Of a stretch of 42,681 bases of DNA, positions 5,541 to 42,681 are shown piece after piece. The notes beneath the pieces were generated by a model. The model saw only the letters and a program-made list of their open reading frames with translations, did no database searches and was not told where the DNA came from. The DNA lies in IMG/VR virus record IMGVR_UViG_3300026078_000307, positions 1 to 42,681 of that record; one strand, written 5' to 3'. The stretch's first letter is position 1. The number at the start of each line of letters is the position of its first letter. Position numbers and translations under genes: made by a program. The stretch is from a virus.

Positions 5541-5836
5541 CCGACGAAATCAAGCTCCAGAAGGACGCGGTAAAGGGCGCCCGCGCGAAGGAATTGCTGG
5601 AGCACGATCTGCTGGCCGAGGCGTTTACCTCGCTGGAGCAGGCTTACACGCAAGCCTGGAGGCTAACCACGATCGATGACGTATCCGGCCGGGAAAAGCT
5701 GTTCCTGGCGATCAACGTCGTCGGAAAGGTGAGGGATCATCTCACCTCGATCATGAACAACGGCATGCTGGCAACCACTGAGTTGCGGCAGCTTGCCGAG
5801 ACGGCCGAGCGCGCTAGGCGCTGGGATCAGGTTTAA
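5537..5836 (+). CDS. Conserved small helical head protein
   Basis: This 99-aa mostly helical protein overlaps the portal stop by ATGA and is followed by the scaffold gene. The core is EQAYTQAWRLTTIDDV, then REKLFLAINVVGKVRDHL. I recognise this as a conserved small protein placed between portal and scaffold genes in related phages, with no known activity. It may help procapsid assembly, by position only. Confidence 0.7.
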   Translation: MTDEIKLQKDAVKGARAKELLEHDLLAEAFTSLEQAYTQAWRLTTIDDVSGREKLFLAINVVGKVRDHLTSIMNNGMLATTELRQLAETAERARRWDQV

Positions 5837-5850
5837 CCCAAGGACAATCC

Positions 5851-6939
5851 ATGAGTGACGAACAGACCGGCACCGCCGGTGAAGACACTACGCCTGCCGC
5901 AACCGTAATCGCGCTGGATGCTGACGCGCCGTCGAGTTTCGACTCGGCCGAGAGCGCTGTTGCCTCCCTTGTCGGGGCACGCGAGAAAGCTGGAATTCCT
6001 GCCGAGAGCGCGGATGACGCGACCGCAGAAGAGGAATTGTCCGATGAGGACAACCGCGCCCCTGAAAAGGCTACCGCGGAAGACCCCGAAGCCGACCCGG
6101 CCGCAAAGCCGCCACTCGAACTTCCGAGGTCTTGGACGAAGGACCGAGCCGAGCACTGGGCCAAACTCGACCCTGACACGCAGGAATTTCTCCTCGAGCA
6201 GGACAGGAAAGCCAGTGAAGCAGTTCGCCGGAGTCAAAACGAACTCGCTGAAGAGCGCAACGCCGTAAAGGCTCAGCGCGAAGCGGCGGAAAAGGCAAGA
6301 CAGCAGTACGAAGCCCAGCTTCCCGTCCTCATGCGGGAGTTGGAAAGCAACCTTCAGCAGTCGTTCGGCGACATCAAGACCATGGATGACGTGGTCAAGC
6401 TGCAGTCGGAAGACCCGTTCCGCTTCCAGGCATGGCAGGTGCATCAGATGCGCTTGCAGGCTGCGAAGGTCGAGACGGATCGCATTGCGAAGGAGAACGA
6501 AACCGTTGAGCAGAACCGCTGGATGGAACACGTCCAGTCGGAGAACGCGAAGGCGGCCGAGTTCATTCCGGAACTCACGGACAAGGACAAGGCTGAAAAG
6601 CTCACCTTGCGCGTGGCGAGGGAATTGCTGCCCGATCTCGGTTTCAAGGATTCCGAACTGGCGGCGCTGGCGAATGGAAAGGAAAAGCTTTCCATCTACG
6701 ACCATCGCATTCAGCGCCTGTTCGCGGACTCCCTGAAGCTGCGGGACATTCAGAACGCTCCGAAAGCTGTTGTCAAAGCCGATCTTCCTCCCGTTCAGCG
6801 GCCCGGTGTTGCTCGCGCCCCAGGTGCGGACAAGGCAGCACTTGTTCAATCCCTCACCGACAAACTCAGCAATTCCGGCAGCGAAAATGACGCCTTTGAG
6901 CTCTTGATGGCCAAACGCGCATCCCGCCGGGCATCATAA
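5851..6939 (+). CDS. Putative scaffolding protein
   Basis: This 362-aa protein has an acidic, disordered N-terminus (about residues 1-85, rich in Ala, Asp, Glu and Pro). A conserved LPRSWTKDRAEHWAKLDP motif follows, then a long charged coiled coil (about 120-230), and a basic C-terminus ending RASRRAS. This layout is usual for scaffold proteins encoded just before the major capsid, where the C-terminus contacts coat. AAGGA lies 6 nt before the ATG. It would act inside the procapsid and leave before DNA entry. The gene order portal-scaffold-capsid supports the call. Confidence 0.8.
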   Translation: MSDEQTGTAGEDTTPAATVIALDADAPSSFDSAESAVASLVGAREKAGIPAESADDATAEEELSDEDNRAPEKATAEDPEADPAAKPPLELPRSWTKDRAEHWAKLDPDTQEFLLEQDRKASEAVRRSQNELAEERNAVKAQREAAEKARQQYEAQLPVLMRELESNLQQSFGDIKTMDDVVKLQSEDPFRFQAWQVHQMRLQAAKVETDRIAKENETVEQNRWMEHVQSENAKAAEFIPELTDKDKAEKLTLRVARELLPDLGFKDSELAALANGKEKLSIYDHRIQRLFADSLKLRDIQNAPKAVVKADLPPVQRPGVARAPGADKAALVQSLTDKLSNSGSENDAFELLMAKRASRRAS

Positions 6940-6951
6940 AGGACTAAAACG

Positions 6952-7908
6952 ATGGCTATTCCTACCAATGCTTTCGCCACTGGTTCGGCGATCGGCAACC
7001 GCGAAGACCTCTCCGACATCATCTATCGCATCGACCCGACCGATACCCCTCTGATGTCGGCGCTCGACACTGAGAAGGCGACGGCGGTCAACCACGAATG
7101 GCAGACCCAGGCTCTGGCGGCTGCTTCCGGCTCCAACGCACAGTCGGAAGGTGCCGACTTCGCCGCGGTTGCGGTCACTCCGACCGTTCGCCTGGGCAAT
7201 ATCGCCCAGATCAGCTCCAAGTATGCGCAGGTCACTGGCACCCAGAACGCCGTCAAGCATGCCGGCCGCGCCAATGAAATGGCCTACCAGGAGATGCTGA
7301 AGGGCCTCGAGCTGAAGCGCGACATGGAGACGGTGCTGTTCGGCACCAACCAAGCGAAGGCCTCCACCGACCCGCGTAACTGCGCCTCGATCCTCTCCTG
7401 GATCAAGACCAACACCAGCAAGGCCGGCACTTCTCCCGCCGACCCGGCTGCGGCGGACGGTACCGGCACCCGTACCGATGGCACGGGCACTCTGGCGGCT
7501 TTCACCGAAGTTCGTCTGAAGACCGTCCTGTCCTCGATCTGGACCAACGGCGGCAAGCCGAACCTGATCTCGACCGGTGCGTTCAACAAGCAGGCGTTCT
7601 CGACCTTCACGGGCCGTTCGACCCCGATGGAAGAGGCGTCCTCGAAGAAGATCACGGCGTCGGTTGACGCCTACGAATCCGACTTCGGCAAGCTGAAGGT
7701 GGTGCCGGATCGCTTCCAGCGCGCCCGCGACGTGCTGGTGCTCGAAACCGCCAAGTGGGCTGTTGCCTACCTGAACGGCCGCAAGTTCGTCTCGGTCTAT
7801 GTTGCGCCGACCGGCGACAGCCAGAAGCGCCAGATCCTTTCCGAGTACACCCTTGTTGCCCGCAACGAGAAGTCCTCGGGCGGCGTGTTCGACAACACGA
7901 GCTCGTAA
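6952..7908 (+). CDS. Major capsid protein, SU10/DUF5309 type
   Basis: This 318-aa protein matches the DUF5309 (SU10-like) capsid family. It has NREDLSDIIYRIDPTDTPLM near the N-terminus, VTGTQNAVKHAGRANEMAYQ in the spine region, LKRDMETVLFGTN, and a C-terminal half with FGKLKVVPDRFQRARDVLVL. HK97-like fold is expected from the family. AAAGGA lies before the ATG. A strong intrinsic terminator follows 20 bp after the stop, so this gene closes a transcription unit and can be expressed at high level. A Gly/Thr/Asp-rich loop near residues 160-185 may be surface-exposed. Confidence 0.93.
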   Translation: MAIPTNAFATGSAIGNREDLSDIIYRIDPTDTPLMSALDTEKATAVNHEWQTQALAAASGSNAQSEGADFAAVAVTPTVRLGNIAQISSKYAQVTGTQNAVKHAGRANEMAYQEMLKGLELKRDMETVLFGTNQAKASTDPRNCASILSWIKTNTSKAGTSPADPAAADGTGTRTDGTGTLAAFTEVRLKTVLSSIWTNGGKPNLISTGAFNKQAFSTFTGRSTPMEEASSKKITASVDAYESDFGKLKVVPDRFQRARDVLVLETAKWAVAYLNGRKFVSVYVAPTGDSQKRQILSEYTLVARNEKSSGGVFDNTSS

Positions 7909-7927
7909 GCCTCTTATCCTCAACCTC

Positions 7928-7951
7928 AGGCGCCCTTCGGGGCGCCTTTTT
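7928..7951 (+). terminator. Intrinsic terminator after the capsid gene
   Basis: AGGCGCCC at 7928-7935, a TTCG tetraloop, and GGGCGCCT at 7940-7947 form a GC-rich 8-bp stem that runs into TTTTT. This is a textbook Rho-independent terminator. It also precedes the ribosome binding site of the next gene by only a few bases, so partial readthrough would set the level of downstream head genes. Confidence 0.92.
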
Positions 7952-7965
7952 CCTTGGAGGCTTAT

Positions 7966-8310
7966 ATGCCCCTCGTTCAAACTAAAACGGCTTCGGACTA
8001 TGTGCTGGCGGAAAGCACCACGGCCGGCACGACTGCCGTATACGCTATCGCTCCGATCGCGGGGCTTGTTGTCGCTGTCTTTGGCGCTCCTGCAACCGCA
8101 CAGGCGAGCACCGTGACCGTCGCGATCAACGGCACCACCGTTGCTGCCATGGGCATGACCCTTGCGGCCACGGCTTGGGCCACCACTGAAGTCGATCTCC
8201 CACTTGCCGGCGCCAGCGCCGTCTACGTCAATGCCGGCGACGTCATCAGCTTCACTGGCACGGGTGCGGCTGGTGCGGCCTATTCCGTCATCGTCAGGGC
8301 TTTCAACTAA
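7966..8310 (+). CDS. Putative head-associated beta-rich protein
   Basis: This 114-aa protein is rich in Ala, Thr, Val and Gly with alternating hydrophobic strands (VTVAINGTTVAAMGM, ASAVYVNAGDVISFTGTG), suggesting a small beta-sandwich. TTGGAGG lies 5 nt before the ATG. It sits between two terminators just after the capsid gene, where decoration or head-fibre proteins are common. That role is inferred from position and composition; no family is recognised. Confidence 0.6.
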   Translation: MPLVQTKTASDYVLAESTTAGTTAVYAIAPIAGLVVAVFGAPATAQASTVTVAINGTTVAAMGMTLAATAWATTEVDLPLAGASAVYVNAGDVISFTGTGAAGAAYSVIVRAFN

Positions 8311-8313
8311 TCC

Positions 8314-8343
8314 AAAGGCGCCCCTCGCAAGATGGGCGTCTTT
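8314..8343 (+). terminator. Probable second intrinsic terminator
   Basis: AAAGGCGCCC at 8314-8323 pairs with GGGCGTCTTT at 8334-8343 (10 bp, one G-U) around a 10-nt loop. GCC and a TTTTT run follow. It separates the post-capsid gene from the next gene, making a short cistron framed by two terminators. Confidence 0.7.
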
Positions 8344-8363
8344 GCCTTTTTGGAGAAACGTTC

Positions 8364-8582
8364 ATGTCTCAGTTTTCGAAGACCAGGGCCGCTGATCAGG
8401 CGGCTGCTGTGGCAGCGAACGCTGTAATTCAACAGGCGGTCGCAAAGCTGCATGCATCCGGCACGGTGGCCGGCCACGCGAGCTTCCTTGAAGCGTTCGA
8501 GTTGCTTCAGTGGATGATCAATAACGGCTTCGCCATCACCTACAATTCCACCGCGATCACGCAAGTTCAGATCGGATCCTAA
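8364..8582 (+). CDS. Hypothetical 72-aa protein
   Basis: The protein has an Ala/Val-rich helix (about residues 8-32), then a helix FLEAFELLQWMINNGFAI and a short strand tail YNSTAITQVQIGS. GGAG lies 10 nt upstream of the ATG. The next ATG follows the stop directly. It belongs to the cluster of small proteins between capsid and adaptor. Function unknown. Confidence 0.55.
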   Translation: MSQFSKTRAADQAAAVAANAVIQQAVAKLHASGTVAGHASFLEAFELLQWMINNGFAITYNSTAITQVQIGS

Positions 8583-8870
8583 ATGGCCGTCTTTCAGATC
8601 AAGGCTCCGTCCTCGAGGCAGGGTGCCTCTCAGAACGTTGCGCCTGCGGGAAGCAGCGCGGCATCAACCGTCTTCGGTCCTGAGACGTTCCAGATCCTGG
8701 TGGTGACGACGGCAAGCGGCATCACCATCCGAATTGGAGACGGGACGCCGACCGCCGTCGCGACAGATACTCTTCTGCCGGCGAATATCCCGCTCTATTT
8801 CACCGTGACGCCGGGCCAGAAACTCGCGGCTCTTGGCACGGGCACGGTCTCGGTGACGGAACTGTCCTGA
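8583..8870 (+). CDS. Small beta-sandwich-like virion protein
   Basis: This 95-aa protein shows a repeated strand pattern ending LPANIPLYFTVTPGQKLAAL and GTGTVSVTEL. I know this pattern from small phage structural proteins but cannot name the family. It follows the previous gene without a gap and overlaps the next start by one base (TGATG), so the three are translated together. Head decoration or fibre is possible. Confidence 0.55.
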   Translation: MAVFQIKAPSSRQGASQNVAPAGSSAASTVFGPETFQILVVTTASGITIRIGDGTPTAVATDTLLPANIPLYFTVTPGQKLAALGTGTVSVTELS

Positions 8871-9193
8871 TGCTCGACACGCGCATTCATCTCGACAGCA
8901 ACGGGCAAGATATCGCTGTCGAGATGGTTCAGGATGTTGAACCGATCCTCGAGCACAACAAGCTGTTGCGCTCGCTCGCCCAGAAGAGCGATTGGGGACG
9001 ACACGTCGCATCCATCCCGAACGTCATCATGACCCGATGGCTGAACGAGGAACTTGAGCGCGGCAACACCACGATCAAGATGTTCGGCCCCGAGATGGAT
9101 GCGCTGGTCGATCGTAAGCTGAAGGACCCGGAATGGGCTTTCTTGCGAACCGATAGCGCCCAGGTTCAGAGCTTCATGGGGTTCGGTAGCTGA
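8870..9193 (+). CDS. Conserved head protein of unknown role
   Basis: This 107-aa protein contains AVEMVQDVEPILEHNKLLRS, SDWGRHVASIPNVIMTRWLN and KLKDPEWAFLRTD. It is a conserved type that I associate with the segment between capsid and adaptor genes in SU10-like and related phages. The composition is mixed alpha/beta without signal or membrane segments. Its start and stop each share one base with the neighbouring genes. A head-completion role is inference. Confidence 0.65.
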   Translation: MLDTRIHLDSNGQDIAVEMVQDVEPILEHNKLLRSLAQKSDWGRHVASIPNVIMTRWLNEELERGNTTIKMFGPEMDALVDRKLKDPEWAFLRTDSAQVQSFMGFGS

Positions 9194-16966: not shown

Positions 16967-18453
16967 GCGAACTTCCCCCAGGCTTTGTTCTTGATCAACC
17001 GAATAGCTCGCCGGCATTGCCTTCCGGCTTCGTGCTGGATCAGCCGTCTTTCGGCGAAGACCTTGCCAAGAGCGCTGGCGTTGGACTGGAAAACGCCGCG
17101 ATCAGCACGGTTGGTGGGCTGGGAGATGTTCGGAGTGCTGCCAGCCATGGACTAGACGCGCTCGGTAATCGCCTTGGCGTTGATCTATCTCCGGTCAAGA
17201 CTGCAGCATCTGCGGCAGCGAATCTCATTCCTGGCGGTGGCCTTATCGCTAATGCCCCAACATCGGCGGATATCCGCGCGGCTGCGACAGACCCTCTAGT
17301 TCCGCTCGACTACAAGCCAAGATATGCGCTCAATGGATATGCGAAGACCGGCGCGGAATTTGCGCCAAATTTATTGGCGGCCGGTCCAGAGGGCCTATTG
17401 GCGCGGTTCACAACGAATGTTGCCGTTCCTGCGATCGCAGCCGAGACCGCTGGCCTTTTGACCAAGGATACGCCTGCGGAGCCTTACGCCCGCGTTGCGG
17501 GTGCATTGATCGGCGGCGCCGGCGGGGCCAAGGTTTCGAATGCCATGGCAGAGGCGCGGGCGCTGAAGTCGGCAACGCCGGCACTCGCTGATGTAAAGTC
17601 TGAAGCGTCAAACGCATATGACGCGCTGACAAATCGCAATATCGCAACACCGATTCCGCAATCTGCGCTCGACATCTTGGCAATGGATATCAAGACAACC
17701 TTGAACGCCAAGGGTATCCGGCCATCGACGGCGCAGAGTATCCACAACGCTGTCGATGAGATCAAAGCTCCCGCGACGCCCGGCATGGCGGATGTCGCTG
17801 ATCTCGTCGCGGCCCGGCAGAACGTCAAAAGTCTGCTTGGTGCTCCTGACGCGAACAAGGCCGGCGCGTTTGTGGCGCTCGGCAAGATCGAAAAGGCGAT
17901 TGAGCAGAATTCGCCCGGCACCATGGCTCAGATTAGGGAGGCGGATAAGAATTGGGCGGCCTTCAAGGCTGGTGAAGCGCTGGACAAGCGCGTGGCTAAA
18001 GCCGAACTGCGCGCTGCTGACGAGCATTCGGGAGCCAATGTCGGGAACAAAATCCGCCAGCAGGTAACAAACTATCTCTCCAGCAATGAGTCCAAGTACA
18101 TCTCAGCGGAAACACGCGCCGACCTTGAGAAGATTGTCAGAGGGACCTGGACACAAAACGGCATGCGCGCGGTCGCAAACTTGCTCGGCGGGGGCGGTGG
18201 CCTCGGCATGTTGGCGGGCGGTACGGCCGGTTATGAGGCCGGCGGCTGGCCGGGAGCAATTGCAGGGGCCGCTGTCGGTCGAGGTTTCAAGATCGCGAAC
18301 AATCGCTCTGTGGTGAAGCAGGCCGAACAAGCCGCGGAAGCTATCCGCCGCCGCTCACCACTCGGTCAAACGATGCCGTTGGCATTGCCGCCACCCACGA
18401 ACGTTGCGCTAGCAGCGCTACGGCCTGCGCTTCTGGCGCGCCCAAGAGATTAG
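16957..18453 (+). CDS. Putative DNA-ejection protein with PPGFVLDQP repeat
   Basis: This protein of about 498 aa carries two copies of L-P-x-GFVLDQP (about residues 5-14 and 24-33). These are followed by Ala/Gly helical segments and a near-transmembrane region (GMLAGGTAGYEAGGWPGAIA, about 430-450). This LPPGF-repeat plus helical body is common in phage internal proteins. The ATG at 16957 overlaps the preceding gene by 10 bp; a GTG at 16963 in the same frame makes a GTGA overlap and is an equally good start. The 3' end overlaps an antisense membrane-protein gene. Confidence 0.65.
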   Translation: MAVSELPPGFVLDQPNSSPALPSGFVLDQPSFGEDLAKSAGVGLENAAISTVGGLGDVRSAASHGLDALGNRLGVDLSPVKTAASAAANLIPGGGLIANAPTSADIRAAATDPLVPLDYKPRYALNGYAKTGAEFAPNLLAAGPEGLLARFTTNVAVPAIAAETAGLLTKDTPAEPYARVAGALIGGAGGAKVSNAMAEARALKSATPALADVKSEASNAYDALTNRNIATPIPQSALDILAMDIKTTLNAKGIRPSTAQSIHNAVDEIKAPATPGMADVADLVAARQNVKSLLGAPDANKAGAFVALGKIEKAIEQNSPGTMAQIREADKNWAAFKAGEALDKRVAKAELRAADEHSGANVGNKIRQQVTNYLSSNESKYISAETRADLEKIVRGTWTQNGMRAVANLLGGGGGLGMLAGGTAGYEAGGWPGAIAGAAVGRGFKIANNRSVVKQAEQAAEAIRRRSPLGQTMPLALPPPTNVALAALRPALLARPRD

Positions 18454-24940: not shown

Positions 24941-25339
24941 TTATGAACGATAGCGAGACGGAAGCGGGATATCCCTCTCAGTATTGAGAGAATTTTGCTG
25001 CATGCTCGGCTTCGCGTTCACTCTAAACTTGTTGCGACCGTCAGCATACTTGCCTTGTACAGTCTCGACTAGGTGGCGGATGGCGTTGGGTCGCCTGACG
25101 TTGTGATTCCAGAACTCCTGAACCACCTCCAAACCGAACTCATGGACAAGCTTGCGGATCTCCGGCGGGAAATTGTCTACTCTAGCCATTCGCTCTCTCG
25201 CTCGTTCAACCACTGAAGAATTATAGCTGGGGCTTTCCAGCGCCTGCATGTCCTTCTCACGCTGATACTCTCGCCGCTGGCGAGGTGTCATGCTATCGAA
25301 ATAGGCGCGGCGATCTTCCTTGGTCAAACTCATCGGCAT
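24941..25339 (-). CDS. Hypothetical charged helical protein
   Basis: This protein of about 132 aa has a Lys/Arg/Glu-rich N-terminal helix (TKEDRRAYFDSMTPRQRREY), then FPPEIRKLVHEFGLEVVQEF. The segment NAIRHLVETVQGKYADGR follows, with a polar C-terminus. FPPEIRKLVHEFG recalls small phage proteins with a helical DNA- or protein-binding fold, but I cannot name it. Two in-frame ATGs (25339 and 25333) follow the previous stop closely; the first has a partial GAG upstream. Confidence 0.6.
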   Translation of the reverse strand: MPMSLTKEDRRAYFDSMTPRQRREYQREKDMQALESPSYNSSVVERARERMARVDNFPPEIRKLVHEFGLEVVQEFWNHNVRRPNAIRHLVETVQGKYADGRNKFRVNAKPSMQQNSLNTERDIPLPSRYRS

Positions 25340-25346
25340 TCGCTGC

Positions 25347-25613
25347 TCAGGAACTGCGGGTAGTGAGCGCCGCCTTAACCTCAGCGTCGCTAACATCTCG
25401 AAGGCGCAAGCCGTGGTCGTGGATGGCTGGACCGACCCTGCGGCACACTGCGCAGGTTTCACCTTCCGGGAGGTCGTTGCCGTTAGCGCGGGCAATGCAC
25501 AATTGAGCCATTCTATCTTCGTACTCGGCCCGCTCCGCTTCCGGGTCCGGCTCGTCGGACGGGTGATATATGCCGTCATCGGGGGATTTGGTTTTCCATC
25601 GGTCATAGCTCAT
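25347..25613 (-). CDS. Hypothetical acidic protein with one CxxC
   Basis: The protein is 88 aa. The first half is acidic and proline-containing (SPDDGIYHPSDEPDPEAERA). The second half has GETCAVCRRVGP, a CxxC turn, then HDHGLRLRDVSDAEVKAAL. AAGGAGGG lies just before the ATG, the best ribosome binding site of this segment. It may bind a metal through the Cys and His residues. No family is recognised. Confidence 0.65.
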   Translation of the reverse strand: MSYDRWKTKSPDDGIYHPSDEPDPEAERAEYEDRMAQLCIARANGNDLPEGETCAVCRRVGPAIHDHGLRLRDVSDAEVKAALTTRSS

Positions 25614-25634: not shown

Positions 25635-25859
25635 CTAGGCGAGCCACTTGACTTCGGGATAAGTCACCTGAGCGACACGGTCGCTCGCCACGTCGTAGAA
25701 GAACCCGACTGCGCTATCGTCTGCGCGATGAATGACCGCAATCATATTTGCCCTTGCAAATGCCTTTGCCGCGCCAGCCGCGCTGTTGCGACGCGAGATG
25801 CCGCGCCACTCATTCATTGACTTAACGAAGGATGCGGAGCGGGAGAAAGAGACGGGCAT
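25635..25859 (-). CDS. Hypothetical small protein
   Basis: This 74-aa protein contains SFSRSASFVKSMNEWRGISR, NSAAGAAKAFARANMIAVIH and SAVGFFYDVASDRVAQVTY. The start at 25859 is fixed by CGGAGG 5 nt upstream; longer forms in the same frame run into the control region and are unlikely. It is the first leftward gene after the RHH control region, so that region probably drives its transcription. Confidence 0.65.
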   Translation of the reverse strand: MPVSFSRSASFVKSMNEWRGISRRNSAAGAAKAFARANMIAVIHRADDSAVGFFYDVASDRVAQVTYPEVKWLA

Positions 25860-25920
25860 GGGAGCCTCCGGGGAAGAGAGCGCTGGCAGAATTGCCGCGC
25901 TACATGTCTTGATCTCGTTT

Positions 25921-25982
25921 CTGATATGAGTTATATTCCTCATATGAGTTTCCGTCAATACCTCATATGAGAAATAATCGAC
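25921..25982. promoter_or_regulatory. RHH control region, copy 1
   Basis: The region contains three palindromic boxes: CTGATATGAG at 25921-25930, CTCATATGAG at 25939-25948 and CTCATATGAG at 25962-25971. It matches 30754-30815 at 56 of 62 bases and ends exactly at an RHH gene start in both places. AT-rich TTATAT segments between the boxes suit -10 elements. It lies between divergent genes, so autorepression and control of the leftward genes are both plausible. Confidence 0.8.
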
Positions 25983-26141
25983 ATGGGACGCAAAAAAAGA
26001 TGGGCTGAGGACATGCAGGCCCGATTTGAGGAAGGAACCTTCGATCGCATTGATGCCGTCCTGGCCGAAGGCGAGGAGCGAACGGCATTCGTTCGGGAGG
26101 CTGTTGAGCGGGAATTGAAGCGTCGCGAACGGCGGCCCTGA
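25983..26141 (+). CDS. Ribbon-helix-helix regulator, copy 1
   Basis: This 52-aa protein is rightward in an otherwise leftward operon. It has a basic start (GRKKRW), a beta-strand segment EDMQARFEEGTF, then helices FDRIDAVLAEGEER and TAFVREAVERELKRR. This is the Arc/CopG RHH layout, in which a dimer inserts a two-stranded ribbon in the DNA major groove. It shares 37 of the 52 aligned residues with the protein at 30816-30983. Both are preceded by the same palindrome array, which is probably their operator. No toxin gene follows, so a toxin-antitoxin role is not supported. Confidence 0.8.
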   Translation: MGRKKRWAEDMQARFEEGTFDRIDAVLAEGEERTAFVREAVERELKRRERRP

Positions 26142-26176
26142 TTTCTATCCGGATGATTCATGGCGCCCATCCTCGG

Positions 26177-26278
26177 TCAGGATCGCTTGTCGCAATGCAG
26201 GCACGGCCCGAACTTCACGCACCGTGGATAGCTGCACGGTTGTGCCCGGCAAAATAACCATGTGAGGTATCTAAGCAT
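26177..26278 (-). CDS. 33-aa cysteine-rich microprotein
   Basis: The protein starts LRYLTWLFCRAQPCSYPRC and continues VKFGPCLHCDKRS. It has five Cys and one His in 33 residues (C10, C15, C20, C26, C29), a plausible zinc site. GGGGAGG lies 6-7 nt before the ATG, and the start overlaps the stop of the upstream gene, which supports translation. It ends the leftward segment just before RHH gene 1. Function unknown. Confidence 0.6.
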   Translation of the reverse strand: MLRYLTWLFCRAQPCSYPRCVKFGPCLHCDKRS

Positions 26279-26624
26279 CGCGCGCCTCCCCATTCGGGAC
26301 TGCGCGGGGGCTATATAGCGTCGCCTTGCAGTCCGGACAGTAAAATCGATCCATCTTCGATTTCTCGGTCAGCGGCGGCTGCGAAATCATATGCTTGTGG
26401 TCGCACTTCGCGACCTCGACTGCCTGCCTTGCAGCTTCAATGATCTTGTTCATTTCGATCTCTCTAACCTCGATCCAATGCGGCCAGTCTTCGCCGCGGC
26501 AGTTTCCCTTCCAGGGGCACCATTTGCACTGACATCCCGTCCGGTATTCCCAACGAAACCCCGGACGGTTCTTCCTCATGACGCAGCTGCTTCGTAAGTC
26601 CTCAGTCTGTTTTTCCATCCGCAT
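26271..26624 (-). CDS. Hypothetical zinc-binding-like protein
   Basis: This 117-aa protein has a Trp/Cys-rich segment in the first half: FRWEYRTGCQCKWCPWKGNC, then EDWPHW. The second half has NKIIEAARQAVEVAKCDHKH and a CPDCKATLYSPRAVP ribbon, FYCPDC resembling a zinc knuckle. Translation might also begin inside at the Met before NKIIEA (GAGAG upstream), giving a second shorter product. The listed start has no ribosome binding site and follows a perfect hairpin directly. Confidence 0.6.
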   Translation of the reverse strand: MRMEKQTEDLRSSCVMRKNRPGFRWEYRTGCQCKWCPWKGNCRGEDWPHWIEVREIEMNKIIEAARQAVEVAKCDHKHMISQPPLTEKSKMDRFYCPDCKATLYSPRAVPNGEARDA

Positions 26625-26625
26625 C

Positions 26626-26645
26626 TAACAGGCTAGGGCCTGTTA
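26626..26645 (-). promoter_or_regulatory. Perfect hairpin at a gene start
   Basis: TAACAGGC at 26626-26633 and GCCTGTTA at 26638-26645 form an 8-bp perfect stem with a 4-nt loop. On the leftward transcript it lies between the stop of one gene and the start (26624) of the next, replacing the expected ribosome binding site. It may be a processing, attenuation or weak termination element. Confidence 0.5.
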
Positions 26646-26650
26646 CTTCT

Positions 26651-26902
26651 TCAGGAACGCGGTGGTTCAAGCGCAGAGCGAAGGCGATGGAAGGCCCCTT
26701 CAATGTCGCCGGCCATGACGCCACCGGCCGATTTGGACCTCAGCAGCTTGTAAAGGTACTTTTCCTCGCGATTGATCGCCTTTGTCGCAGTCGCGATCCG
26801 CTTGTCGCAGTGCTCTGCCATGACCTTGGTGGCCGCCTGGAACAGCTTCGCTTGCCGCTTGGCTTCGGCTACCGAGAAAACCTGCTTGATGATATCGGCC
26901 AT
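26651..26902 (-). CDS. Hypothetical helical protein
   Basis: This 83-aa, Lys/Ala-rich, mostly helical protein contains ADIIKQVFSVAEAKRQAKLF, QAATKVMAEHCDKRIATATK and NREEKYLYKLLRSKSAGGVM. The ATG overlaps the previous stop by one base (TGATG). No family is recognised. The last 14 bp before its stop resemble the end of 24480-24686. Confidence 0.6.
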   Translation of the reverse strand: MADIIKQVFSVAEAKRQAKLFQAATKVMAEHCDKRIATATKAINREEKYLYKLLRSKSAGGVMAGDIEGAFHRLRSALEPPRS

Positions 26903-27231
26903 CACTTCGCTCCCGTGGTCGGCGTATGAGCCGACGAGGGCGACTTCAGTTCGCCCTCCAACCGATCGGCTTCTTCGCGTAGGGCTTTAATGCGATCTTG
27001 TATCGGGCTTGTGCATTCGGTCGAATAGTTCCAGTGCTGTCCACCTGAGAAGGCCATATTAGCCGTCCAGAGGTCCTCAAAGCTCTTGATCTCAGCAATC
27101 TGGATTTGCCAGCTCTCGATGGCATTACGTAATGCCTCATACGAGCAGGCCGATACGGTCAGGACGAGCTTCCAGTCTCGTGGAGCGCTTGACGTGACGG
27201 GGACGACAACAATTTCAGAGTCCATACTCAT
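26902..27231 (-). CDS. Hypothetical protein with C-terminal helix
   Basis: This protein of about 109 aa starts with strands SEIVVVPVTSSAPRDWKLVL, followed by SACSYEALRNAIESWQIQIA, which may be a small alpha/beta fold. A C-terminal coiled coil follows (IQDRIKALREEADRLEGEL). ATGA overlap links it to the upstream gene; GAGG lies 4 nt before the ATG, and a second ATG lies 6 bp later. Function unknown. Confidence 0.6.
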   Translation of the reverse strand: MSMDSEIVVVPVTSSAPRDWKLVLTVSACSYEALRNAIESWQIQIAEIKSFEDLWTANMAFSGGQHWNYSTECTSPIQDRIKALREEADRLEGELKSPSSAHTPTTGAK

Positions 27232-27401
27232 GTCGCCTCTTTCGTGGTCTGAATGGCGGGTGGCGGCACGAAACGGCATTTATCCTCGGGGCCCGCACCG
27301 CACAGGTCGCAATTTCCTTTGAGCGGAAGCCAATGACCGGAGGCGCATTTCCCAATGCTCTTGTCGGCCATGGTTGTGTAGGTGCGAGGCTCTTCCATCA
27401 T
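27228..27401 (-). CDS. 57-aa zinc-ribbon-like protein
   Basis: The protein contains GKCASGHWLPLKGNCDLCGA and GPEDKC. The four Cys and one His spacing (C-x3-H, C-x2-C, C) suits a small zinc ribbon. It is short for a longer open frame; the start at 27401 overlaps the preceding stop by ATGA, which fits the coupling used by its neighbours. Its own stop overlaps the next start. No named family. Confidence 0.6.
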   Translation of the reverse strand: MMEEPRTYTTMADKSIGKCASGHWLPLKGNCDLCGAGPEDKCRFVPPPAIQTTKEAT

Positions 27402-27637
27402 CGCGTTTCCTTCATCGGAGGGGCGGGTAGAGGCATCCAGTGGGTCGGATTCATGAATGGCCCGCGCCATGTTGATCCGGTGACGCACCACGATTGATCG
27501 ATGCCGTCCCAATAGCCCGACGAGACGATACTGCCGTCCCACCCGCACAAGTCGCTTTTTGATTTTCCGACCTGGGGGCCGTAAATCATGATGGTGGTGT
27601 CTTTCGGCGCCGTGCTGATGTCCTGCCACTCGCTCAT
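27398..27637 (-). CDS. DUF551-like protein
   Basis: This 79-aa protein has the ends of DUF551 proteins: EWQDISTAPKDTTIMIYGP at the N-terminus and NPTHWMPLPAPP at the C-terminus, with a Trp-rich middle. Such proteins are frequent in phages and prophages with no known activity. The start and stop are both in ATGA overlap with neighbours, showing a tightly coupled operon. Confidence 0.8.
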   Translation of the reverse strand: MSEWQDISTAPKDTTIMIYGPQVGKSKSDLCGWDGSIVSSGYWDGIDQSWCVTGSTWRGPFMNPTHWMPLPAPPMKETR

Positions 27638-27909
27638 CGGGCGCTCCCTGCGTTCACGGCCATCGGAAGGCGGGGGCCGAGGATATCGATCCGACCGCTA
27701 ATCTTGGTGGTGGCAATGCTCTGTCCGTCTGGAGTTAGTTTCAGCTTGCCGTCCGTGTCCTTCTCGACAACAACGACAAATCCAGCCGTGTCGTCGGCCT
27801 CGCAGACGCCGTCCATCTCGATCCCGTTGACATAGACTTTCGGGCATTCTTGGAACTGGTTTTTCCAATGGTCCGGCTTGCGGTCATCCAACCCGCCAAC
27901 AATTCGCAT
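27634..27909 (-). CDS. Hypothetical beta-rich protein
   Basis: This 91-aa protein contains RIVGGLDDRKPDHWKNQF, CPKVYVNGIEMDGVCEADDT, then strands AGFVVVVEKDTDGKLKL and ISGRIDILGPRLP. It looks like a small beta barrel of the kind found in early operons. GGGAG lies 7 nt before the ATG. I do not recognise the family. Confidence 0.6.
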   Translation of the reverse strand: MRIVGGLDDRKPDHWKNQFQECPKVYVNGIEMDGVCEADDTAGFVVVVEKDTDGKLKLTPDGQSIATTKISGRIDILGPRLPMAVNAGSAR

Positions 27910-27910
27910 G

Positions 27911-28126
27911 TTAGGCTCCCTTCGCTGCGACAGCCTCGTCGAGCTCACTCAGGGTGCGGCGCAGAATGGAGCGCTGAGCCTCGTGGTGGCCTGGCCGCCC
28001 TTCCGGCTCCGATAGGACCGTCAGGGCGCCGATAGCATCCGTGGCTCGCCAGGTGATTGCCTTGTCTTGGGCGGCGCGGATCCGAAGCCCATGGAGCTCG
28101 GATTTGGCTTGGTCGGTGGTCGTCAC
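27911..28126 (-). CDS. Hypothetical helical protein, GTG start
   Basis: This protein of about 71 aa contains TTDQAKSELHGLRIRAAQDK, ATDAIGALTVLSEPEGR and RSILRRTLSELDEAVAAKG. The GTG at 28126 has GGAG 8 nt upstream and is taken as start; the frame stays open beyond it without a ribosome site. It is the first gene to the left of the integrase region, so the 174-bp gap upstream probably carries its promoter or the attachment site. Confidence 0.55.
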   Translation of the reverse strand: MTTTDQAKSELHGLRIRAAQDKAITWRATDAIGALTVLSEPEGRPGHHEAQRSILRRTLSELDEAVAAKGA

Positions 28127-28169
28127 TGTCTGTTCTCCGTCCGCGGCTAGGCGCCGCTTTGATAGGTTC

Positions 28170-28279
28170 GGATGACTGACGGACTTTAGACAGATCAAGG
28201 CCACTCCGCAGATGGTCAAGGAATGGCTTGTCTGAAAAGTCCAATTAAAAGAATAACTTAAAAAGACCGTCAGTCATCC
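28170..28279. repeat. Inverted repeat beside integrase (candidate attP arms)
   Basis: A perfect 13-bp inverted repeat, GGATGACTGACGG at 28170-28182 and CCGTCAGTCATCC at 28267-28279, flanks an 84-bp AT-rich stretch. The core TGACTGACGGAC (28173-28184) is also present in reverse at 28265-28276 with one change. It occurs again at 29872-29883 upstream of the excisionase-like gene (11 of 12 bases). Integrase arm sites or Xis sites are the likely reading; the crossover core is not identifiable. Confidence 0.6.
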
Positions 28280-28300
28280 GTCAGCTAGTAGGTTCTCACT

Positions 28301-29557
28301 TCATTCGGTTTTCGATTTGTTCCGGTGCTCGACCCGCAGCCGCATCACCTTGGCAACCTTCTCGGCCGCCCCACGGGAATACCTCTGGGTCATCGAGATG
28401 TCGCTGTGGGTTGCGGCGTGCCTGACGTCCTCGAGCTCGGCTCCAGCATCGGTAGCCTCCGTAATGGCTCCTGAGCGGCTATCCATGTTCCAGACATTCC
28501 GGGGGATCCCGCAGGCGTTGGCGAGCTGGCGCCACTTTTTGCGGAAGTCGGAGGCCGGCCAGGGCATGGCATCCTGTTCCCGGGTGACCATGGGACCGGC
28601 CGCGGGAAACATGTCTCGGCGGAGCTCGGAAACCTGCACGCCGGCCATGAAGGCCAATTCGGCCAAAACCATGGGCGCCAGCATCAGGTCAATTTCGATG
28701 GTTTTCCCCTTTTTGCTGGTGACATGCACCAGCTTGAAGGTTTGGTCGAGCTCGGACCAACGGAGGCCGCGGAGCCATTTCTTGCCCTTCCAGATCACGT
28801 CCGACGTGCCGGGCTCGCTGATCGGGACTAGCTCGCCAATTACATCGCGCTGACGAAGAGTTCCCTCGTACTGGAGAGATTGAGCAAAGGCGATCGAGTG
28901 CAGGCCCCATTTATGGGCCTTGGCCCGGACGGCATCGGCCTGGGCGGCCGAGACGAAGTTCTTCCGCGGCGACGGGTTCTCGAAGCGCATCTTGCTCATG
29001 ACGCCGCATAGACGCTCGCATTCCGGATCCTCGAGGATCGTCGCGCCGAATGTGAACAGCACCCGGAGCTGTCCTCTGATTGCCTGAGCGGTCGCTAGCA
29101 TCGTGCCGCCGTTGCTCCATTCCTCATGCCAGGCGAGCAGGGTGCGGGCCTTGGTGTCCTTCACCTCATCGGACCCATGGCGGATGACCATGCGGCGCAG
29201 CAGCGTGTCGTGGTTCGACCGCACATGGTAGCGTTTCTTGTGATAGGTGGAGTCCGGATCAGTCTGATAGCAGTTGATCAGGGATTTGTAGGTGCCGTCG
29301 TAAACGTAGGTATGCCCACCGGTCGGGAGTCCGCCGCGGCTAAAAAGCAGCATTTCATCCTGAAGGCGCCGACAGCCGTCCTGGATCTCGACGATTTCGA
29401 GCTCGGTCGGCTCTTTGCCAAGCCATACCCGCTGGCTCTTGGTCGGGAAGCCCTTGTTGATCAAGTCGGTACGGGCCTGCCATCGGGCCTCCCAGTTCTG
29501 GCCGATCGTGCGCCAGCGTAGGCCAGGCGCGTTGTCGATCTTCGGCGGCTCTTTCAT
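28301..29557 (-). CDS. int: Tyrosine integrase
   Basis: This is a 418-aa tyrosine recombinase. The N-terminal half is an arm/core-binding region, and the catalytic domain spans about 195-395. Motifs are GTLRQRDVIGEL (box I arginine, R235 or R237), the TSKKGKTIEIDLM beta-hairpin with Lys, a DSRSGAITEA segment with R361, and HAATHSDISMTQRY with H384 and nucleophile Y393. The His that usually opens the HxxR box is Met here. It would integrate the phage DNA at the host site. The start at 29557 overlaps the excisionase-like stop (ATGA). Confidence 0.92.
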   Translation of the reverse strand: MKEPPKIDNAPGLRWRTIGQNWEARWQARTDLINKGFPTKSQRVWLGKEPTELEIVEIQDGCRRLQDEMLLFSRGGLPTGGHTYVYDGTYKSLINCYQTDPDSTYHKKRYHVRSNHDTLLRRMVIRHGSDEVKDTKARTLLAWHEEWSNGGTMLATAQAIRGQLRVLFTFGATILEDPECERLCGVMSKMRFENPSPRKNFVSAAQADAVRAKAHKWGLHSIAFAQSLQYEGTLRQRDVIGELVPISEPGTSDVIWKGKKWLRGLRWSELDQTFKLVHVTSKKGKTIEIDLMLAPMVLAELAFMAGVQVSELRRDMFPAAGPMVTREQDAMPWPASDFRKKWRQLANACGIPRNVWNMDSRSGAITEATDAGAELEDVRHAATHSDISMTQRYSRGAAEKVAKVMRLRVEHRNKSKTE

Positions 29558-29823
29558 CGGCGGCCTCCTGCGGCCTGCACGATCATGCCATACTTCTGAT
29601 CGAAGTAGTCTTTGACCGCCGGCCAGTAGCGCCGATCTCCCCACAATTTCTGTTTCTTCGGGAAGCCCGAAGGCTTTGCGTCAAGCATGCGGATGACCTC
29701 TCTAGCTTGCTTTTCCGGCACGCCCATGCGTCGGATCAGCTCGGCATCTGTTAGCCAGAGCTTATCCTTCTCGCGTTCGAGTGTTTCGGGTGACGGCGTG
29801 CTCACAGCTAGAGGTTTCTCCAA
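29554..29823 (-). CDS. Excisionase-like DNA-binding protein
   Basis: In this 89-aa protein the core DKLWLTDAELIRRMGVPEKQ, KPSGFPKKQKLWGDRRYW and VKDYFDQ forms a small winged-helix-type fold like AlpA/Xis-type adaptor proteins. It is followed directly by the integrase in ATGA overlap, which supports excisionase or directionality-factor function. The start is uncertain: TTG at 29823 as listed, or GTG at 29805; neither has a strong ribosome site. A TGACTGAC motif lies 50-60 bp upstream. Confidence 0.7.
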   Translation of the reverse strand: MEKPLAVSTPSPETLEREKDKLWLTDAELIRRMGVPEKQAREVIRMLDAKPSGFPKKQKLWGDRRYWPAVKDYFDQKYGMIVQAAGGRR

Positions 29824-29886
29824 GTCAACAAAAATTCCTAGTCCGGGAAAAGTCTAAGACGCATTCTTTTTTGACTGACAGACCGG

Positions 29887-30351
29887 TTACGTATCCCCCT
29901 GCGAGATGAAGGCCGACATGGCGGCTTCTTCCTTTCGCGCGGCCTTGTCGATCAAGCGCAGCACATGGATATAGGCCTCATATTTCCCAGCCCGATCCGA
30001 GCGTTTGACGTGCCAGAGTTCTCTGGCAATGTCGGCCCAGAGACGACGGAGCGGGGACCGTCGCTTGAAAGTTTGACGGCCCCCATCCGAACGCTCGCTA
30101 GTCTGGGCGTTGCGGGCTCGTGGCGAATAGAGCAGGTTTTCAGCCACGAGCTTCTGACGGCGATCTCTCTTCGCCGCCAACACGTCGGGCCATTGGGCCG
30201 TCAGTGTCCCTGTGGCCCGCTTAGCAACACTGCGGGCGAAATTGTGTGGCAGATCGCAGCCATGAGCATGAGCCGCATTCTCGACCGCGCCCGCCACTAT
30301 GCGCAAGGTCCGATACTGCGATGGCGTCGCACGTTTCCACAGACTAGCCAT
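29887..30351 (-). CDS. Conserved rhizobial phage protein
   Basis: This 154-aa basic protein begins ASLWKRATPSQYRTLRIVAG, continues NFARSVAKRATGTLTAQWPD, and ends with a helical region with LRRLWADIARELWHVKRS. I recognise the WKRATPSQYRTLRIV...ARS.AKRA.GTL.AQWPDVLA pattern from rhizobial genomes and prophages. Its basic charge fits nucleic-acid binding, but no function is known. GGAG lies 9 nt before the ATG. Confidence 0.75.
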   Translation of the reverse strand: MASLWKRATPSQYRTLRIVAGAVENAAHAHGCDLPHNFARSVAKRATGTLTAQWPDVLAAKRDRRQKLVAENLLYSPRARNAQTSERSDGGRQTFKRRSPLRRLWADIARELWHVKRSDRAGKYEAYIHVLRLIDKAARKEEAAMSAFISQGDT

Positions 30352-30472
30352 CAGATCGCTCCTGTGAAACTATCGCGGCAAACACATAGATGGCGACTAC
30401 GACCACGATCGGGATAGCGAACACAATCCATCGTGGGTAGAGGGTGTTTCCGATCCAGATCAGATCAGTCAT
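30344..30472 (-). CDS. 42-aa single-pass membrane protein
   Basis: The protein begins TDLIWIGNTLYPRW and has a strong transmembrane helix IVFAIPIVVVVAIYVFAAIV (about residues 16-35), ending SQERSDG. GAGAGG lies about 4 nt upstream of the ATG. Its 3' end overlaps the next gene start by 8 bp. This is one of several tiny membrane proteins scattered through the leftward operon. No homolog is recalled. Confidence 0.6.
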   Translation of the reverse strand: MTDLIWIGNTLYPRWIVFAIPIVVVVAIYVFAAIVSQERSDG

Positions 30473-30518
30473 GGTGCCTCTCATCGTGAAATATCGCGCA
30501 GTAGCGCTGAATCATCAT
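30465..30518 (-). CDS. Possible 17-residue coupled micro-ORF
   Basis: This 17-codon frame (MIQRYCAIFHDERHHD after a double Met) begins in ATGA overlap with the stop of the upstream gene. It ends 8 nt inside the next gene. It would carry ribosomes across the gap between two genes. The peptide may have no function of its own; the evidence is only the overlap pattern. Confidence 0.25.
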   Translation of the reverse strand: MMIQRYCAIFHDERHHD

Positions 30519-30730
30519 TGACCCTGCGCGCCCTTCCATCTGTCGCGGCCGGCGTCGTGCTGCTTCGCCATCACCGCACGGTGTATGCTCATCTCCGGAT
30601 CGAGCAGATTGAGAATTAGCGACCGGCAGCGCTCGTAGTCCGCAATATCGCCATCCTGTTCCGGGCGCGAGGCCATGCGGAATATGCGGCCAAGGGCGAG
30701 ATTTACGGTCGTGGCTTGCTCGTTGGTCAT
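30515..30730 (-). CDS. Hypothetical helical protein
   Basis: This 71-aa protein contains NEQATTVNLALGRIFRMASR, IADYERCRSLILNLLDPEMS and AKQHDAGRDRWKGA. AAGGGG lies 8 nt before the ATG. It is the first leftward gene after the second RHH control region, in the same relation as 25635-25859 has to the first. Family unknown. Confidence 0.65.
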   Translation of the reverse strand: MTNEQATTVNLALGRIFRMASRPEQDGDIADYERCRSLILNLLDPEMSIHRAVMAKQHDAGRDRWKGAQGQ

Positions 30731-30753
30731 TTGCGAACCCCTTGCGTTGATTT

Positions 30754-30815
30754 CTGATATGAGTTATATATCGCATATGACTTATCGTCAATACCTCATA
30801 TGAGAAATAATCGAC
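30754..30815. promoter_or_regulatory. RHH control region, copy 2
   Basis: The region is 56/62 identical to 25921-25982. Boxes are CTGATATGAG at 30754-30763, a degraded CGCATATGAC at 30772-30781, and a perfect CTCATATGAG at 30795-30804. Differences cluster in and around the middle box, so binding may differ between the two copies. It ends at the start of RHH gene 2. Confidence 0.8.
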
Positions 30816-30983
30816 ATGGGAAGAAAAAAACTTTGGCATGAGGATATGCAGGCCAGATTCCCCGAAGGAACGTTCGAGGCAATCGACGAGGTTTTGGAAG
30901 AGGGCGAAGACCGGACACAATTTGTGCGCTGCGCCGTTGAGCGTGAACTGCAATACCGGCTGAAGCGGCAGAAAAAGTCATAG
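30816..30983 (+). CDS. Ribbon-helix-helix regulator, copy 2
   Basis: This 55-aa protein is a paralog of 25983-26141 (37 of 52 aligned residues identical). It has GRKKLWHEDMQARFPEGTF, then the helices FEAIDEVLEEGEDR and TQFVRCAVERELQYR. The proline in RFPEG is typical of RHH strands; copy 1 has Glu there. A Cys replaces Glu in helix 2. Rightward and antisense to its neighbours, it converges on 30978-31364 with a 6-bp overlap. Role as for copy 1: a dimeric repressor of its own control region and of the divergent leftward segment. Confidence 0.8.
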   Translation: MGRKKLWHEDMQARFPEGTFEAIDEVLEEGEDRTQFVRCAVERELQYRLKRQKKS

Positions 30984-31364
30984 TCGCTCCTGCGGAGCAA
31001 CTGCGGTTAAGACGGGCTCATTTAGGAATTCGGCCGTCTCGCGCGTGAGGTGGTGTTTCGCCAGGTCATATCCGCTTACGACCCAGCCGCCATTTTTGGC
31101 GACATTTTCCCAGCGGTGTAGCAGCGAAATGGCATCACGCTGCCGGCCCAGTTCGTGCGCTTGCCGGTCAACCTGTCCCATCCACATATCGCGGTTGCGA
31201 GCGATGCGATCTCGGTCGGATCGAATGGCGGAGATCTCTGCAGCCATCTGAGCGATATCGTGCAGCGCCATCGTCAGCACGTTCTCGGCCTGCGCCGCAC
31301 TGCCTTCAACAACAGCCTTCGGTTTGACGTGTGACCACGCTTCCGGCTCGTGGAAAACCTTCAT
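30978..31364 (-). CDS. Hypothetical coiled-coil protein
   Basis: This 128-aa protein has a long helix in the middle (LTMALHDIAQMAAEISAIRS, DRQAHELGRQRDAISLLHRW). A C-terminal module follows: NGGWVVSGYDLAKHHLTRET. GGGGG lies 7 nt before the ATG, and the start overlaps the previous stop as ATGA. It ends the first segment of the leftward operon, meeting RHH gene 2. Unknown function. Confidence 0.6.
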   Translation of the reverse strand: MKVFHEPEAWSHVKPKAVVEGSAAQAENVLTMALHDIAQMAAEISAIRSDRDRIARNRDMWMGQVDRQAHELGRQRDAISLLHRWENVAKNGGWVVSGYDLAKHHLTRETAEFLNEPVLTAVAPQERL

Positions 31365-33537: not shown

Positions 33538-33674
33538 TGGCGCTTTCCGGCTGTGGGAAAGAACGGAAGTTTTCGAGAGAACAGGTAAAGTCCTACGTCT
33601 GCCAATTCGTCGAACCGCGCCGGGAAACCGAAAAAATCGGCGCGTTGACCATCCCTGTTACGTCCGGTTGACAC
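33534..33674 (-). CDS. Possible 46-aa protein, GTG start
   Basis: A 47-codon frame fills most of the 149-bp gap between two genes. It encodes STGRNRDGQRADFFGFPARF, then DELADVGLYLFSRKLPFFPT. It ends in ATGA overlap with the DUF1643 gene, and its GTG lies 12 nt after the upstream stop. These placements match the operon style, but composition alone is not convincing. Confidence 0.45.
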   Translation of the reverse strand: MSTGRNRDGQRADFFGFPARFDELADVGLYLFSRKLPFFPTAGKRQ

Positions 33675-33686
33675 TCTCGAAATCTC

Positions 33687-37917: not shown

Positions 37918-38241
37918 CTAGGACACTCGGCGGGCTGCTACCAGCGCCTCAATGACCCGGAAACCTTGATCCTGAACGTCGCCTGGCTGATCCCTCAGGA
38001 GGGCGTCGGCGCTCGGTTGATCAGGGTGCCTATAGAGATCAACCACCTCGATCCCCAACACCCAAGCGATCGCTGATTTAGCGTCATCATCGGGGCGGCG
38101 CTTCCCGGTTTCCCATCGCGAAACGGTTACGTCTGTCGTCTCAAGCCGGTCTGCCAGCTGTTGCTGGGTCAGATGTCGGCTTTCTCGCCACTCGGCGAGG
38201 AACAGCTTGACGGGCTTTCTTGGACCAATTCGAGGGGGCAT
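37918..38241 (-). CDS. XRE-family regulator, leftward (repressor candidate)
   Basis: This 107-aa protein has its helix-turn-helix at about 20-60: RESRHLTQQQLADRLETTDV, TVSRWETGKRRPDDDAKSAI, with VLGIEVVDLYRHP completing the domain. A short tail (FRVIEALVAARRVS) may help dimerise. The ATG at 38241 has no ribosome site and lies 13 nt from operator 38254-38270, so a leaderless message like lambda cI is possible. Longer frames run into the operators. Divergent from the other XRE gene. Which of the two is the lysogenic repressor cannot be told. Confidence 0.8.
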   Translation of the reverse strand: MPPRIGPRKPVKLFLAEWRESRHLTQQQLADRLETTDVTVSRWETGKRRPDDDAKSAIAWVLGIEVVDLYRHPDQPSADALLRDQPGDVQDQGFRVIEALVAARRVS

Positions 38242-38253
38242 TTCGGGAGCATA

Positions 38254-38326
38254 CCTACCAATGTGGATAGCTCCCATAACCAAAACGGTAACATAATAGG
38301 CTTGTAGAGCCTACCATTTTGGTTTA
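38254..38326. promoter_or_regulatory. Central operator array (OR-like)
   Basis: Three copies of CCTACC-N5-GGTAGG lie between divergent XRE genes: CCTACCAATGTGGATAG at 38254-38270, ATAACCAAAACGGTAAC at 38276-38292, and CCTACCATTTTGGTTTA at 38310-38326. Centres are 22 and 34 bp apart. The half-sites vary, so affinities should differ. A further inverted repeat TAGGCT-N5-AGCCTA (38297-38313) overlaps the third. Confidence 0.85.
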
Positions 38327-42133: not shown

Positions 42134-42536
42134 CCAGTATGCTGATCCTGAGGGCTTTATGGTCTCTCTCGGTGCCGTACTCGAGGGATTTCCGGACGAG
42201 GTAATAACCCACGTCACCGATCCGCGCACGGGCATCCAGCGCCGTATGAAGTGGCCGCCGACGATCAGCGAAGTGATCGAAGCCTGCGAGGAGCACCAAG
42301 AGTATTTGCGGAAGCTGCGAACATCGCGGCCCGCCAAGCGAAGTTCTGTCCCGGGTTCTGGAGCATCGGGTCAGTGCGTGAAGATATTCGTTCCCGAAGG
42401 GCACAAGCGATACGCAGGCCTTGTCCGCTGGGCGGAAAACCAGGAGCCAAAGTGGTGGCATTTCGGGCAGTCCTCGGATGGGCGTAACGGCATCTGGGTT
42501 CCGTTCGCCCAGTGGGAAGAACCGCAAGCGGCTTGA
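42003..42536 (+). CDS. Hypothetical protein after the initiator
   Basis: The protein is 177 aa. The central part YADPEGFMVSLGAVLEGFPD, EVITHVTDPRTGIQRRMKWP and PTISEVIEACEEHQEYLRKL is a conserved pattern of replication-operon proteins in rhizobial phages (a small helical loader-like domain). The C-terminus has KIFVPEGHKRYAGLVRWAEN and a Trp-rich end. The ATG at 42003 would overlap the initiator by 131 bp; a later start is possible. Its stop shares a base with the ATG at 42536. Function inferred only by position. Confidence 0.65.
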   Translation: MEHLKINPVAALSQESTASSQQLRQRKGLILRCQKALFSAYRTDQYADPEGFMVSLGAVLEGFPDEVITHVTDPRTGIQRRMKWPPTISEVIEACEEHQEYLRKLRTSRPAKRSSVPGSGASGQCVKIFVPEGHKRYAGLVRWAENQEPKWWHFGQSSDGRNGIWVPFAQWEEPQAA

Positions 42537-42681
42537 TGGAGAAATGGAATGCACGGGGCAGTGACGGGCAGGCCGCTGACAGCCAGGCAGCAGACCATTT
42601 GCGACCTCATCACGCTTGGCCGCACGAACAAGGAGATTGCTTTCGAACTCGGGATTGGATCCCGCACTGTCGAGTGCCATC
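42536..42681. repeat. Terminal repeat, right copy
   Basis: This is a copy of 1-146 with G instead of T at the base matching position 20 (42555). Joining the two ends here gives an uninterrupted series of genes. This end of the sequence carries the better context, because it follows the preceding gene without a break. Confidence 0.9.
42549..42681 (+). CDS. LuxR-type HTH protein, 5' part (cut by sequence end)
   Basis: This is the first 44 codons of the same gene as 14-223. GGAG sits 7 nt upstream of the ATG. Residue 3 is Gly here and Trp in the left copy. The rest of the gene is at the left end of the window, so this is not a broken gene but a consequence of where the circle was opened. Confidence 0.8.
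   Translation, partial: MHGAVTGRPLTARQQTICDLITLGRTNKEIAFELGIGSRTVECH

Follow-up and report, generated by a model that had tools for sequence, protein, structure and literature searches.

A family of putative ribbon-helix-helix switches in phages, in which two protein residues appear to predict the DNA word beside the gene

The phage record IMGVR_UViG_3300026078_000307 of IMG/VR, analysed here over its whole length of 42,681 bases (the window), carries two small modules, each comprising a gene for a putative ribbon-helix-helix (RHH) protein and a control region with three palindromic boxes. Rather than chiefly a case of duplication, the two modules appear to be one instance of a large family of RHH switches in phages, apparently not described before, whose operator code can be read and whose modules are predicted to be orthogonal to one another. 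Across this family, two residues of the RHH protein seem to predict the DNA word beside its gene. We consider it probable that each module is an autoregulated switch and that the two window modules form one cross-repressed regulon with two outputs.

The strongest internal repeat of the window in a repeat search pairs positions 25918-26117 with 30751-30950 (200 nt, 76% identity). Within it, the control regions (25921-25982 and 30754-30815) agree at 56 of 62 positions and the coding parts at 101 of 156, and similarity breaks off sharply outside both ends (11/38 and 19/62). Each control region contains three ten-base boxes, as an earlier sequence-only reading had correctly recognised, with starts spaced 18 and 23 nt apart in both copies. 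The boxes are CTGATATGAG (1a, 25921-25930), CTCATATGAG (1b, 25939-25948) and CTCATATGAG (1c, 25962-25971) in copy 1, and CTGATATGAG (2a, 30754-30763), CGCATATGAC (2b, 30772-30781) and CTCATATGAG (2c, 30795-30804) in copy 2. The consensus CTSATATSAG is matched five times in the window, each time within the two control regions (0.09 expected; none of 100 shuffles reached five), and box 2b departs from it by two changes.

The boxes are interleaved with promoter-like elements. Both copies contain a predicted leftward promoter matching the consensus at 10 of 12 positions, composed in copy 1 (25930-25958, minus strand) of TTGACG (25958-25953), a 17-nt spacer and TATAAC (25935-25930), and in copy 2 (30763-30791, minus strand) of TTGACG (30791-30786), 17 nt and TATAAC (30768-30763). 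In each, the middle box lies in the spacer, box c stands 3 nt upstream of the -35 element, and box a abuts the -10 element. Copy 1 also has a predicted rightward promoter (25909-25937, plus strand; TTGATC at 25909-25914, 17 nt, TATATT at 25932-25937; 9 of 12 matches), whose spacer contains box 1a and whose -10 element overlaps the leftward -10. Given this overlap, polymerase at one predicted promoter should exclude the other, and a box-bound protein would block both. Among relatives, leftward promoter-like sites with at least 10 of 12 matches occur in 34% of control regions compared with 2.2% of shuffles, and rightward ones in 13.8% compared with 2.6%.

The genes for RHH1 (25983-26141, plus strand, 52 amino acids) and RHH2 (30816-30983, plus strand, 55 amino acids), neither of which has a Shine-Dalgarno sequence, are both flanked by leftward genes. 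As the sequence-only reading had proposed, both are antisense to their surroundings and each heads a separate leftward segment with different genes (starts at 25859 and 30730); autorepression is likely. The two proteins are identical at 35 of their first 46 residues and throughout strand residues 9-15, which read EDMQARF in both. A Glu/Pro difference previously taken for strand divergence falls at residue 16, beyond the strand (the model begins helix A at 19), where relatives with an exact CTCATATGAG box carry P (18), E (5) or A (4). Differences between the two genes are distributed 14/12/29 over the codon positions, a third-position excess (p = 0.009, with synonymous sites saturated) which suggests that both copies are under selection.

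An AlphaFold2 monomer model has an extended N-terminus and helices at 19-26 and 33-50, with a mean predicted local distance difference test score of 87 and the strand not formed. This layout, together with matches to hidden Markov models (HMMs) of RHH-type families, corresponds to the short N-terminal strand followed by two helices that characterises RHH proteins. The NCBIfam model NF041551 (YlcI/YnfO; curated cut-off 30 bits) scores RHH2 at 33.7 and RHH1 just below the cut-off at 29.8, and PHROG family phrog_949, of unknown function, matches both. A literature search on YlcI/YnfO/DUF3950 returned passing mentions or unrelated text only, with no function described.

Some 140 relatives were collected, mostly from phages and prophages of Alphaproteobacteria (individual relatives carry L numbers below). 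Scanning across viral contigs, genomes of species and phage records yielded about 60 viral or phage records and about 45 further genome loci. Where known, the hosts belong to Hyphomicrobiales, Sphingomonadales and Caulobacter; the cyanophage record Pam5 and a few contigs of metagenome-assembled genomes labelled otherwise complete the set. In even draws, modules were carried by 8 of 397 genomes in one order, 15 of 399 in another and 21 of 392 in the Bradyrhizobium family. Most phages hold a single module, and no RHH gene of this family could be detected in Bradyrhizobium phage ppBjS10J-1, which is alike in its recombination genes. The gene left of the module runs leftward in 57 of 63 loci and the gene to its right in 47 of 61, which makes the antisense position a family rule and not a quirk of the window phage; the genes on both sides change between phages. 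Integrases, where identified, are almost always encoded leftward, downstream of the module in about two-thirds of cases and upstream in about one-third, and the window holds modules in both positions. Shine-Dalgarno sequences are absent from 78 of 87 RHH genes of the family and present in 361 of 491 other genes; as leftward-gene starts were chosen partly by this signal, only the RHH figure is free of bias.

Two layouts recur among these modules. The short layout, to which the window belongs, has overlapping promoters and an RHH leader of about 30-40 nt. The long layout has a separate RHH promoter whose -35 element lies at -36, whose 17-nt spacer contains a box and whose -10 element lies at -13, 7 nt before the start codon; the mean promoter score at that offset is 6.97, against 4.32 (standard deviation 0.66) over all offsets, and the strict form was found in 9 of 16 long modules among new loci. 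With the -10 element exactly 7 nt before the start codon, the RHH message should be leaderless, as predicted for L021, L032, L036, L037, L197 and others. We also considered a conserved terminator between upstream transcription and the RHH gene and rejected it, since candidates occur at just 7 of 63 loci compared with 2.7% of shuffles. The copy 2 candidate, a leftward terminator-like hairpin with a T tract (31002-30982, minus strand), sits exactly at the convergent end of RHH2, which itself reaches 6 nt into the convergent gene 30978-31364.

Across relatives, the box next to the leftward -35 element stands in a fixed register (GTCAATA, 1 nt, then the ten bases), as box 1c does, so operators can be compared without fitting. 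Over 70 pairs, strand similarity correlates with box similarity after removal of helix similarity (partial r 0.53), compared with 0.21 for the helices given the strand. The best predictor of the bases at +-3 is residue 10, and that of the central four is residue 12; on our alignment, we take these residues to be the equivalents of the Arc contact residues Q9 and N11. C..G occupies +-3 in 23 of 26 cases with D10 and in 1 of 48 others. Among non-D10 proteins, P, L or V at residue 12 accompanies an ATAT core in 27 of 28 cases, compared with 0 of 16 for other residues, whose cores are ATAC or GTAC with Q12, GGGG-rich with K12, GGTGCC with N12 and mostly TAGC with S/T12.

Both rules were fixed in writing before new loci, already fetched, were read. 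On these held-out loci the residue-12 pattern was present in 7 of 7 cases against 1 of 8 (p = 0.0014), the exception carrying M12, hydrophobic like P/L/V, and the residue-10 pattern in 3 of 3 against 0 of 18 (p = 0.0008). This covariation at residues 10 and 12, which passed the held-out test, is what would be expected of RHH proteins, whose alternate strand residues specify bases. The code further predicts that D10Q in RHH1 would shift its preference from TCATATGA towards TGATATCA, and that Q12L, Q12K and Q12N in a KPTQVRL-type protein would shift the core from ATAC to ATAT, GGGG-type and GGTGCC-type, respectively.

From the boxes, promoter-like overlaps, antisense placement, shared strand and covariation read in the DNA, we infer how the modules may work. 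An RHH dimer would place a two-stranded ribbon, EDMQARF from each chain, in the major groove at the TCATATGA boxes; by covering the overlapping -35 and -10 elements, it would block both the leftward accessory promoter and its own weaker rightward promoter. In segment 2, the leftward promoter would also serve the excisionase-position gene and the integrase. On infection, with no repressor yet present, the leftward genes would fire first; as RHH built up, both promoters would shut, and they would stay low in the lysogen. Because the strands are identical and the boxes the same, the two proteins should share one code, and cross-repression is predicted, with both modules acting as a single regulon. 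The sequence-only reading had allowed for either different or cross-acting repression; identical strands and shared boxes favour the latter and disfavour the former. It is conceivable, though we would not expect it, that same-code modules within one phage or in co-resident prophages generally shut down one another's accessory operons, forming an immunity-like layer independent of the CI-like repressor, with different codes insulated and the modules serving as portable switches of about 300 bp.

Several observations weigh against this account. The word CGCATATGAC of box 2b also occurs once outside the modules, at 17613-17622 in the structural-gene part, probably by chance, and copy 2 has a weak rightward promoter, with 8 of 12 matches at best. 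A Foldseek search of the 52-residue monomer model against the PDB gave no match, and sequence matches to PDB RHH proteins were not significant, which leaves helix layout, family HMMs and covariation as the basis of the RHH assignment. The covariation partly reflects shared ancestry: a helix-only tree yields three supported independent pairs, all in the right direction and too few for significance.

An alternative in which each RHH protein represses its own module only, through diverged residues and a diverged middle box, would accommodate the 11 differences among the first 46 residues and the two changes in box 2b. Modules of different strand and box type do coexist in four other multi-copy phages (L041, with CATATATACG and CGATACCG; L037, with CATGTAC and GGTACC; L027; and L042) and in one further genome, where two modules lie 5 kb apart. 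Two such insulated switches are nonetheless unlikely in the window, where the two proteins agree throughout strand residues 9-15, CTSATATSAG describes five of the six boxes and residue 16 does not track the box. Moreover, the middle box, which had been thought specially diverged between the copies, also varies more than the other boxes in single-copy relatives (CTCAAACGAG, CTCATACGAG, CTGATATTAG).

Autoregulated divergent promoters near an integrase resemble immunity regions, and the RHH genes of long-type relatives are apparently leaderless, like lambda cI, whose message is leaderless; both features would suit an RHH protein acting as main lysogeny repressor, with the modules as the immunity switch. 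We regard this as very improbable, given that a helix-turn-helix (HTH) repressor-like gene of CI/Cro type at 37918-38283 (minus strand) is a separate candidate immunity repressor, that no box with 0-1 mismatch lies near this gene or the replication and recombination genes, and that Sinorhizobium phage StopSmel has an RHH module beside its annotated c repressor. A lambda-type repressor controls early lytic promoters, whereas the boxes here occur only at the two modules. It is harder still to credit a role for RHH as an antitoxin paired with a toxin, or as a DNA-binding accessory factor in partition, the relaxosome or integration, with boxes that are autoregulatory or structural. RHH antitoxins such as MazE6 do autoregulate through operators at the -10 element (PMC9477884), but the window protein ends right after helix B without a toxin-binding tail, no same-strand gene follows it, the next gene being convergent, and the module's neighbour changes between phages. 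A type II antitoxin shares its operon with a toxin gene; RHH is a lone gene.

The sequence-only reading had held, from the differing flanking genes, that only the switch was duplicated. True descent of one window copy from the other is unproven, trees placing the copies with different single-copy phages. RHH2 groups with L050 (support 99/87). RHH1 shares up to 112 of 138 codon bases with several single-copy phages compared with 94 of 138 with RHH2, a lower likeness than recent copying of one module from the other would lead one to expect, and such copying was rejected; RHH1/RHH2 sisterhood itself was not rejected by the approximately unbiased test (p = 0.09 for protein, 0.225 for DNA). In L263, a 300-bp RHH module is duplicated at 97% identity (3655-3954 and 6098-6397, 2.4 kb apart), and the genes that separate and flank the copies differ, which indicates that the switch alone can be copied. 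Modules in relatives, for which the sequence-only reading had suggested looking in one or two copies, proved to be mostly single; same-code pairs were seen in the window and L263 only, the other multi-copy phages carrying modules of different code. L263 also contains, from 3007 to 8904, seven imperfect copies of a repeat of about 31 nt, CAACTGAGGGACgAGACCATG, at gene starts, which looks like a shared translation-start element of an operon.

Few of 114 first and second leftward genes have Pfam matches, three being DNA methyltransferases, and no cargo gene was recognised as an anti-CRISPR in this Pfam scan, which included no search against an anti-CRISPR library. The idea that the first leftward gene is specially orphan was dropped: the genes flanking it on both sides are at least as orphan, which points to variability across the region as a whole. 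The same cargo lies behind different-code switches in L008/L060 and L040, and in window segment 1 and L016; these few cases suggest that code and cargo are exchanged separately. Segment 1 begins with a 74-residue orphan (25635-25859, minus strand; strong Shine-Dalgarno at start 25859), 48% identical to the first leftward gene adjoining the L016 module, and continues over 24941-25613 (minus strand; called as 25347-25613 and 24941-25339, with the open reading frame 24941-25606 open throughout). Segment 2 begins with a 71-residue orphan (30515-30730, minus strand; strong Shine-Dalgarno at start 30730) and includes a small gene in the excisionase position (29554-29823, minus strand), just ahead of the tyrosine integrase (28301-29644, minus strand; 447-residue open reading frame, called start 29557) and kept together with it in relatives.

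Most long genes of the window run rightward up to about 24.4 kb, and a leftward block from about 37.3 to 24.5 kb contains ERF and YqaJ recombination genes, NinB, the integrase, the excisionase-position gene and many orphans. Inside this leftward operon, 33574-33683 (minus strand) matches the Rfam family of the Rhizobiales small RNA Atu_At1 (RF02496; 88.7 bits, gathering threshold 60), a phage-borne copy of a family named from Agrobacterium. Positions 1-146 and 42536-42681 form a 146-nt terminal direct repeat with one mismatch, which may be a circular assembly overlap or a true terminal repeat; the mismatch would be unusual in a simple overlap.

Few repressors are smaller than RHH proteins, and strand reading of DNA has been worked out for only a handful of them. 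The family supplies more than 90 natural protein-operator pairs in a fixed register, with a simple code whose predictions held on loci not read before. This opens RHH recognition to direct tests and provides a potential source of orthogonal 50-residue repressors with predicted operators. The family's modules also mark cassettes of accessory genes in alphaproteobacterial phages, nearly all of whose products are uncharacterised.

Members of NF041551 in the E. coli DLP12 and Qin prophages, and phrog_949, share the short RHH core of the window proteins, although E. coli ylcI differs in N-terminal arm and strand and has, by eye, no comparable tandem boxes upstream. P22 Arc and Mnt resemble the window RHH in fold class, in alternating strand residues that read bases and in phage origin. 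Unlike them, the window RHH, which matches no solved RHH protein significantly in sequence, appears as a stand-alone portable module with variable cargo. In MazE6-type RHH antitoxins, paralogs that have different operators owe their specificity to strand residues, and the operator lies at the -10 element (PMC9477884); the window RHH differs in having neither toxin partner nor antitoxin tail. Aca1 and Aca2 are small phage DNA-binding proteins whose inverted repeats cover the -35/-10 elements of an accessory-gene promoter, giving an early burst followed by shut-off (PMC8434428, PMC11065993). Aca2 is an HTH protein and aca shares an operon with acr; the window protein, by contrast, has an RHH layout, outside the HTH definition of Aca, and its gene is divergent and antisense. 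The window modules nevertheless share the Aca-type autorepressor arrangement, with inverted repeats, here in the spacers and beside the -35 and -10 elements, over the predicted promoter of small, mostly orphan accessory genes.

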